From Occallatibacter gabretensis (lineage in GTDB: Bacteria > Acidobacteriota > Terriglobia > Terriglobales > Acidobacteriaceae): a stretch of DNA of 64,000 nucleotides. Positions 4,036-46,994 of the stretch are shown one piece after another. The stretch spans positions 486,947 through 550,946 of the forward strand of contig NZ_LAIJ01000012.1 in the NCBI RefSeq assembly GCF_001449115.1, given 5' to 3'. Numbering within the stretch: the stretch's first letter is position 1; each line of letters begins with the position of its first letter. The position numbers and the translations under genes were made by a program. A model generated the notes under the pieces. It worked only from the letters and a program-made list of their open reading frames with translations. It searched no databases and was not told the origin of the DNA.

Positions 4036-4169
4036 GTTACTTTCGTCCATTGAACTTTCGTACCGTGTTCCATCCGCAGAAACTTTGCGTGCAATTAACC
4101 CCGAATATGCTTTACTCATAATCAGCAGAGAAAGCGACGGCCCGAATCCTCATGGATTCGGGCCGTCGC
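4036..4169 (+). repeat. Copy A of a duplicated intergenic element ending in a terminator hairpin
   Basis: This stretch aligns with 46574-46698 without similarity between the flanking genes. Conserved blocks, in order and at nearly constant spacing, are GTTACTTT-GTCCATTG, CTTTCGTA, TTTGC, AATTA, TATGC and ACTCATAATCAGCAG, then a GC-rich hairpin. TTTGCG and TATGCT are 16 nt apart and look like a -35/-10 pair, which would put a start just before the CTCATAATCAGCAG block. It could be a very short RNA gene with its own terminator, or a mobile or structural intergenic repeat. It lies between the FG-GAP gene and serS. Confidence 0.6.
4134..4169 (+). terminator. Perfect 16-bp hairpin after the FG-GAP gene
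   Basis: GCGACGGCCCGAATCC is followed by a TCAT loop and its exact reverse complement. No strong T-tract follows. It is the last part of repeated element A and probably terminates the upstream transcript or the element itself. Confidence 0.75.
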
Positions 4170-4400
4170 CGTTATGGGAGGGGAGGGGGCCCCTCCCCCA
4201 CCCCCTCTGCACTGAAATTTGTGCAAACGAACTGATTCACCATCACCCAACTGCACAGTCTCGAAATGAAGATCGCATAAAGATTTCTCCAGAAACTGTG
4301 CGAACGGTATGTAAGCTACAGAAAAACCATAACTTCAGAATCCGTGCAGCACAGGATAACTCGCAACAGCTGCCCTATCCTCCGGTACACTAGGAAAGTC
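4170..4400 (+). other. serS upstream region with a G/C-block hairpin
   Basis: At 4180-4198 there is GGGGAGGGG, one G, then CCCCTCCCC, a perfect 9-bp inverted repeat of pure purine/pyrimidine blocks. It follows the terminator of element A and sits about 200 nt before the serS start. It may be a second terminator stem or a leader structure of serS. I see no T-box signature and no gene here. Confidence 0.5.
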
Positions 4401-46573: not shown

Positions 46574-46698
46574 GTTACTTTAGTCCATTGTCCTTTCGTA
46601 ATGAAACCTCGCTCAGATAGTTTGCATAAAATTACCGCCGTTTATGCCACACTCATAATCAGCAGCGGAAAAAGGCCCGATGGACAAATCGGGCCTTT
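46574..46698 (+). repeat. Copy B of the duplicated intergenic element ending in a terminator hairpin
   Basis: Homologous to 4036-4169. Shared blocks in order: GTTACTTT-GTCCATTG, CTTTCGTA, TTTGC, AATTA, TATGC and ACTCATAATCAGCAG. TTTGCA and TATGCC are again 16 nt apart. The block from TTTGC through CAGCAG is the same length (45 nt) in both copies. The hairpin sequences differ apart from GGCCCGA, so the terminator is conserved by structure. Confidence 0.6.
46671..46698 (+). terminator. Rho-independent terminator after the CocE hydrolase gene and element B
   Basis: AAAGGCCCGAT, loop GGACAA, ATCGGGCCTTT form a perfect 11-bp stem followed by CTTAATTT. Confidence 0.85.
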
Positions 46699-46994
46699 CT
46701 TAATTTAGGGAATTCATCTCCCGAAAAAAAAGGAAAAAAAACAAATTTCTTTGGGAAAAGTAACCACTTTTTGCCAATCTATTGCACAATTAGTTAACAG
46801 CAGGAAATCGAGTCACTCAACTGAATCTAAAGGGATTTACATACTTAACTCCCTGCATGATCCTCTCGGCTAACTTGCTGACTCGCCACCGCGCAAAGCG
46901 CGGCTAACCTGCTAATAAACAAATCCGGATGCTCAGGCCGTCTCTCCCCCTGCCTCACACTTTCAGTAAATCTGTAACGGCCTCGCGAGCTGCC

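Follow-up and report, generated by a model that had tools for sequence, protein, structure and literature searches.

The window, meaning the whole 64,000-nucleotide stretch that was analysed, contains two copies of an intergenic element on its forward strand, copy A at 4036-4169 and copy B at 46574-46698. A sequence-only reading of this DNA had placed both copies correctly, and they align over their whole length as it claimed; the blocks that it named as conserved (GTTACTTT.GTCCATTG, CTTTCGTA and ACTCATAATCAGCAG) are present in each. Its statement that the flanking genes are unrelated holds for the neighbours of A and B, which gave no match to one another, but the family of the gene upstream of A is common to two further places where the element is found (L031 and L101).

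Copy A opens with an upstream block, U1 (GTTACTTTCGTCCATTG..CTTTCGTACCGT; 4036-4066), which the majority of the 39 exact copies described below retain. The candidate core promoter (4084-4116) comprises TTTGC (4084-4088), TATG (4106-4109), one further base and the hexamer TTTACT (4111-4116), and from this extended -10 geometry an RNA start near 4123 is predicted. The 15-mer ACTCATAATCAGCAG (4114-4128), identical in all 39 copies, covers the end of the -10 element and then the discriminator. It is followed by a terminator-type hairpin with a 16-bp stem (4134-4169; -36.1 kcal/mol, z -8.6), backed by covariation across the family, and by two tail modules: M1 (4176-4226), a G-rich then C-rich tract with TGCAC..GTGCA, and M2 (4250-4362; TGCACAGT..GATCGCATAAAGATT..GCACAGGATAACTC).

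Copy B repeats this order, with U1 at 46574-46600 (recognized from the alignment with A and from the contexts of the 39 copies) and a core promoter at 46621-46653, in which TTTGC (46621-46625) and TATG (46643-46646) precede one base and the hexamer CACACT (46648-46653). In both copies the core was assigned from base counts relative to the 15-mer and from the columns of a MAFFT alignment. The hairpin of B has an 11-bp stem followed by CTTAATTTAGGG (46671-46698; -19.4 kcal/mol, z -3.4), and its tail is a different module, M3 (46720-46799; AAAGGAAAAAA..GTAACCACTTTTT..GTTAACA). Both copies are ORF-less leaders with tails, and no co-directional gene lies directly downstream of either.

Neither window copy matches an Rfam RNA family. 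At or above the gathering threshold, an Rfam scan of the window returned two tRNAs only, and around copy A the best sub-threshold match was Pxr on the minus strand, at 27.3 bits versus 80. The 15-mer bears a likeness to an anticodon arm. A tRNA origin was rejected when the lists were compared, as none of the 39 places is among the 46 tRNA matches; among 30 tRNA loci read, the one containing CTCATAATC has a different stem.

A dispersed family with a common core and a covarying hairpin

Across the host genome (5.35 Mb in 19 contigs, window included) the 15-mer occurs exactly 39 times, 23 on the forward and 16 on the reverse strand, compared to none for the reversed control, which excludes chance as the source of the likeness between A and B. 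All 39 contexts were read. A covariance model built from these copies (R1) gave 148 matches at E <=1, many of them the opposite strand of the hairpin. A second model (R2), built from 113 copies, gave 126 matches at 0.001 and, less one antisense and one hairpin-only row, about 106 places down to an E value of 2.2e-5, most of which are training rows of R2; copies A and B, also training rows, scored 1.1e-20 and 6.6e-19. Further copies in the genome, on which the sequence-only reading had staked its proposal, are thus present in number. Among the 107 host places read in all, three (L009, L185, L377) are without most of the core, two (L112, L115) deviate from TTTGC, and in five (L186-L189, L374) a hairpin of the usual type is not clearly recognizable, L186-L189 retaining no clear GGCC hairpin.

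Conservation in relatives was another point on which that reading had made its proposal depend, and R2 detected related families in congeners. With the host included, 11 of 79 genomes of the genus were positive: G139 has 23 matches, G178 17, G160 10 and G126 8, and six genomes have one or two each, counts in which some matches are antisense and low-scoring ones may be chance hairpins. The exact core pattern was found in three of 80 genus genomes (host 24, G139 10, G165 2). R1, a narrow model applied with strict filters, matched the host genome alone among 120 genomes of the taxonomic family. An exact-pattern scan of named genomes, a set from which the host itself may be missing, gave no match, and no copy was seen by eye upstream of serS in 12 relatives. 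The genes of the host point to an acidobacterium; its SerS shares 81% identity with those of two acidobacterial bins. No description of the family was found in the literature, judged on titles and abstract openings. In G165, both copies of the core promoter (L301, L304) have TGTTCCACGTGGAACA no more than about 60 bp upstream, and no family hairpin is evident behind these cores; TGTTCCACGTGGAACA resembles a ParB binding site (parS).

Nearly all copies share one plan, in which TTTGC is followed after 24-25 bp by TnTGn-nAnACT and, 14-23 bp further on, by the hairpin. Counted relative to the 15-mer alone, each of the five bases of TTTGC is kept in 36-38 of the 39 copies and the T, T and G of TnTG in 37, 38 and 38, with the base between the two T variable. 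Because the T and G of this motif are kept while the intervening base varies, the hexamer ending in ACT makes the better -10 element, with TG one base before it; a TG one base ahead of the hexamer is the extended -10 arrangement. The TTTGCR/TATGCY pair of the sequence-only reading does exist in A and B, but it is not the form conserved across the family, and TATGCY was rejected as the -10 element since its second base varies. A TAGAAT-like box after TTTGC was also discarded, as about half of the 39 copies have G at its second base.

In a MAFFT alignment of 113 copies from two species (A2; 115 copies less two without the core), TTTGC is present in 108-113 copies per column, the T and G of TnTG in 112 and 113, and ACT in 104, 108 and 112, although these counts are not independent, since the model that retrieved the copies had itself been trained on the 39. 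Anchored spacing was 25 bp in 83 of 93 host copies and 24 bp in the other 10 (4 of 97 were not anchored); as anchoring rewarded TG and ACT, the T and G counts of 93/93 are true by construction and the spacing leans likewise. The stretch between TTTGC and TnTG is A/T-rich. The -10 hexamer is weak, most commonly CACACT, and at its second position, where A is expected, 21 of the 113 copies have T and 5 have C. TTTGC lies about 20 bp from the hexamer, too far for a usual -35 element. At L179 and L322 the family core is kept and the hairpin is unrelated.

The stem ends 42-55 bases after ACT. Double changes occur in all 13 of its pairs in A2, where paired cells reach 92.5% versus 80.5% after shuffling, and covariation is 0.351 versus 0.164 for shuffled and at most 0.098 for slid versions; A2 was aligned without structure, but many of its rows were found by a structure model, which leans the covariation result. 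Among the 39 copies found by the 15-mer alone, double changes affect 9 of the 17 pairs predicted. The compensatory changes bear out the claim that the hairpin differs in sequence between copies and keeps its structure, and a hairpin conserved in this manner is expected of an intrinsic terminator or attenuator. Among the copies with the searched stem form (95 of 115), A occupies 67-78% of each of the four positions ahead of the stem, and T after the stem reaches up to 64% overall. The T tract is poorer where M1 follows, with a mean of 4.7 T in 14 nt (31 copies) versus 7.0 in the 64 copies without M1; copy A is an M1-bearing case with a poor T tract. The searched form is absent from the other 20 copies, L186-L189 among them.

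Tail modules, small genes and genomic surroundings

The block upstream of TTTGC differs between subtypes; that of type 2 consists of TTGTCAAGCCC with TGTGGAAA and is also found in G126 and G160. Behind the hairpin lie further repeated modules, labelled M1 to M5; M3-M5 were recognized from short motifs or visually, and their boundaries are approximate. M2 is present at 38 places in the host genome at <=1 mismatch, and all 38 have a same-strand leader upstream (0.015 expected for each), at a distance of at most 501 bp in 37 cases and of 1,089 bp in one, where the leader (L371) precedes two small ORFs and then M1 and M2. The short M3 motif of copy B is exact in L010, L011 and L112. M4 (L012, L121, L133, L177 and others) consists of iteron-like CCGCATTTT repeats and then 8-bp repeats such as ACAGAATCTGTAATTCTGTAAATCTGT, located 60-150 bp behind the hairpin, and a similar stretch is found in three G139 copies. 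The tail modules were rejected as structured RNAs, since M2 gave no consensus fold (0.0 and -0.01 kcal/mol; 46 sequences) and M4 short palindromes only (14 sequences).

A small ORF of the kinds described here stands behind the leader at 12 of the 107 host places, and there is none at roughly nine in ten, both window copies included. Six host copies lead into a small ribbon-helix-helix-type (RHH) ORF; four of the six ORFs were scanned, and all Pfam matches fell below curated cut-offs. Among eight more host places obtained with R2, four lead into an ORF of a four-helix protein family, in addition to L371, and the leader of L179 also precedes such an ORF. In all of these the small ORF lies behind the hairpin and has a ribosome-binding site. 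In G178, a leader stands ahead of a phage lysozyme ORF (PF00959, 3.1e-41). The tails that follow ORF stops in the host genome are those that follow the hairpin in ORF-less copies: M1, elsewhere 3' of the hairpin, is 3' of the ORF stop in L383, M4 in L388 (4 mismatches in 26), M3 in L398 (1 mismatch in 13) and weakly in L402 (3 in 13), M2 in L118 and L126, and part of M5, by eye, in L396, while in L130 M2 overlaps the ORF end. At L182, a leader and a ribosome-binding site precede a 329-codon frame (as read), 133 bp past the 15-mer position.

The small four-helix protein carries a motif like FIACVAHG and is predicted to fold as a four-helix bundle (model pLDDT 81). Comparison with Pfam, NCBIfam and PHROGs gave nothing above chance level, and the model of the protein matched nothing in the PDB at E 0.001. 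It is encoded in 11 of 150 genomes of the taxonomic family. It has 8 matches in the host, 19 in G160, 2 in G126, 4 in G139 and 3 in G178. A same-strand leader lies upstream of 21 of 30 small-protein loci at E <=1e-4 (from the host, G160, G126 and G178) and of 27 at E <=0.0073, which adds G139 and includes some weak, partial matches; one of the 30 is a training row of R2. At this latter level R2 found no leader at L386, L394 and L400. In G160, 13 of 13 small-protein loci read (19 found) have a leader. Among 12 further loci outside these five genomes one has a firm leader, L414 in G044, a member of another genus (R2, 1.4e-6); L410 scored 0.0089, and none of the remaining ten did better than 0.26. 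A firm leader thus stands upstream of the four-helix gene in five genomes, one of them from another genus. At seven G160 loci (L384, L389, L392, L395, L397, L403, L404), about 150-250 bp with GGTGCCCC-type hairpins separate leader and ORF, which indicates that other repeats insert inside the unit.

The orientation of neighbouring genes was determined at 82 places from ad hoc gene calls. The upstream gene is co-directional with the element in 55 of 75 cases (p 6e-5), and between tandem gene pairs the element points in the genes' direction 28 times and opposite 11 times (p 0.009); the downstream gene is co-directional in 38 of 78, without bias. The element therefore prefers gene ends and is generally not the leader of the next gene, a general rule that the downstream count led us to reject. 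Along contig C2, orientation appeared mixed by eye. One host copy (L117) and one G139 copy (L170) share the same flanking genes, the best frames being 94% and 76% identical, and have the core at the same place, with U1 in L117 only; three more pairs clearly share one flanking gene (L175/L160, L030/L173, L008/L161). It follows from L117/L170 that at least one core copy predates the species split and that its sequence has drifted by lineage. Upstream of copies such as L027, L028 and L113 and of many G139 copies, two further intergenic repeats, likewise dispersed, were seen, of the forms GGGTGCCCCA..hairpin..TGGGATAGCA and GTCATCCTGA..GTCGAAGGACCTGCTTTTG.

A candidate promoter-attenuator unit

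The claim of a repeat family with an internal promoter and terminator is supported by the number of places, the covarying hairpin, the fixed promoter geometry and the homologues in congeners. With a confidence slightly above even, we read the element as the 5' leader of a dispersed modular promoter-attenuator unit with optional cargo, mostly gene-less in this genome. The order of the unit would be a promoter, an intrinsic terminator within ~50 bp, an optional small ORF and one of several tails. Transcription would begin about 7 nt downstream of ACT, and most rounds would stop after ~40-55 nt at the hairpin. Where an ORF follows, the small gene would be expressed from transcripts that pass the hairpin by read-through or antitermination (attenuation), whereas ORF-less copies would produce the short hairpin RNA only and would also end transcription arriving from the upstream gene. 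We infer from sequence that the promoter works, where it starts and that the hairpin attenuates, and likewise any promoter strength, read-through and mobility of the unit. The ORF-less copies may have descended from ORF-bearing ones, rather than the reverse. No sensor or antiterminator, as attenuation needs, was identified.

Type III toxin-antitoxin loci consist of a promoter, a short RNA, a terminator and a small protein gene, and the present family has the same parts, its short RNA being a predicted one. Unlike at those loci, the RNA part showed no tandem repeats and its sequence is not conserved, and the four-helix family is without a Pfam or NCBIfam match. ORF-bearing copies resemble attenuators generally in having a promoter, a short leader, an intrinsic terminator and a gene. 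The family differs from them in that a small gene is missing behind most of its terminators, about a hundred relatives occur in one genome, and no sensing structure was seen in the leader. In 2010, a function had been assigned to hardly any of the predicted attenuators of such phyla as the Acidobacteria (PMC2965389). If the promoter-attenuator reading is true, about a hundred related units would give this genome a single kind of cassette at which much of its intergenic transcription begins and ends. The reading would also offer a way into an unnamed family of small proteins and into predicted Acidobacteria attenuators without a known function, and a test case for the spread of gene-less regulatory units.

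The sequence-only reading had suggested an sRNA family or a mobile repeat, and both were weighed. Each copy could be the gene for a 40-55 nt trans-acting RNA whose 5' end (about AUCAGCAG) pairs with targets, so that the copies are sibling sRNAs. The promoter-like and terminator-like parts, the general lack of an ORF, the unbiased direction of the downstream gene and the identity of the 15-mer in 39 copies all suit this model, which we nevertheless consider doubtful. The 15-mer overlaps the promoter and is restricted to part of one species' copies, with type 2, type 4 and the congeners differing there, and the leader also precedes ORFs in the host and its relatives. The stretch that would be RNA keeps an A-rich tract and a hairpin, but no RNA sequence or seed, as a trans-acting sRNA would have, was found to be conserved across subtypes or relatives, which argues against a base-pairing sRNA; since the presence of promoter and hairpin is conserved and the letters of the RNA are not, a control device fits better. 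It is a slimmer prospect that the element is a miniature non-autonomous mobile element of the Correia, BOX or SPRITE kind, with its own promoter and terminator and a transposase acting in trans. In favour of mobility are the dispersed, modular, intergenic copies with lineage-specific forms, and such repeats are described as intergenic, present in tens to hundreds of copies and carrying promoter-like or terminator-like sequences (PMC10969869). The present family departs from them in that no inverted ends were found, in its linkage to ORFs and tails, and in a hairpin under compensatory change. Against mobility, a comparison of 22 units running from U1 to M2 gave no terminal inverted repeats (best 12-mer match 7.55 versus 7.5 in the control), one copy is orthologous in two species, and orientation is biased towards the upstream gene.

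A plain regulon, in which a single activator or sigma factor serves about a hundred promoters that have leader terminators and were duplicated with or without genes and without being mobile, would explain a common core ahead of genes as different as those for the RHH and four-helix proteins, the lysozyme and the L371 pair. We regard it as very improbable: a small ORF is missing behind most places, the direction of the downstream neighbour is random, and a promoter motif alone would not explain why the M2 tail accompanies the leader. An unlikely further reading is a dispersed gene-cassette system, in which leader and tail frame small cargo genes that a tyrosine recombinase moves. The four-helix family would be the commonest cargo, and the hundred copies made of leader and tail would be cassettes without a gene, which place promoters and terminators between the genes of the host. 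In Vibrio superintegrons, gene-less integron cassettes with promoter activity have been described (PMC11014356), and the present unit is similar to these in occurring with or without an ORF and in having a promoter in its gene-less form. It differs in that the copies are scattered over many contigs and not collected in one array. The four-helix gene lies directly behind a tyrosine recombinase gene at five loci (in G136, G221, G035, G117 and, as L400, the host; L429, L430, L431, L432 and L428:12349-13481), from five genomes including the host, of which three belong to other genera within the taxonomic family. The absence of a leader from all five in the R2 search opposes the cassette reading, and leader and recombinase are therefore linked only via the shared protein family. 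At all five the two genes overlap by 4 bp and the recombinase matches PF00589, the phage-integrase family; given this position behind the integrase gene, the four-helix protein may be the partner of the recombinase, and hence a possible accessory factor.
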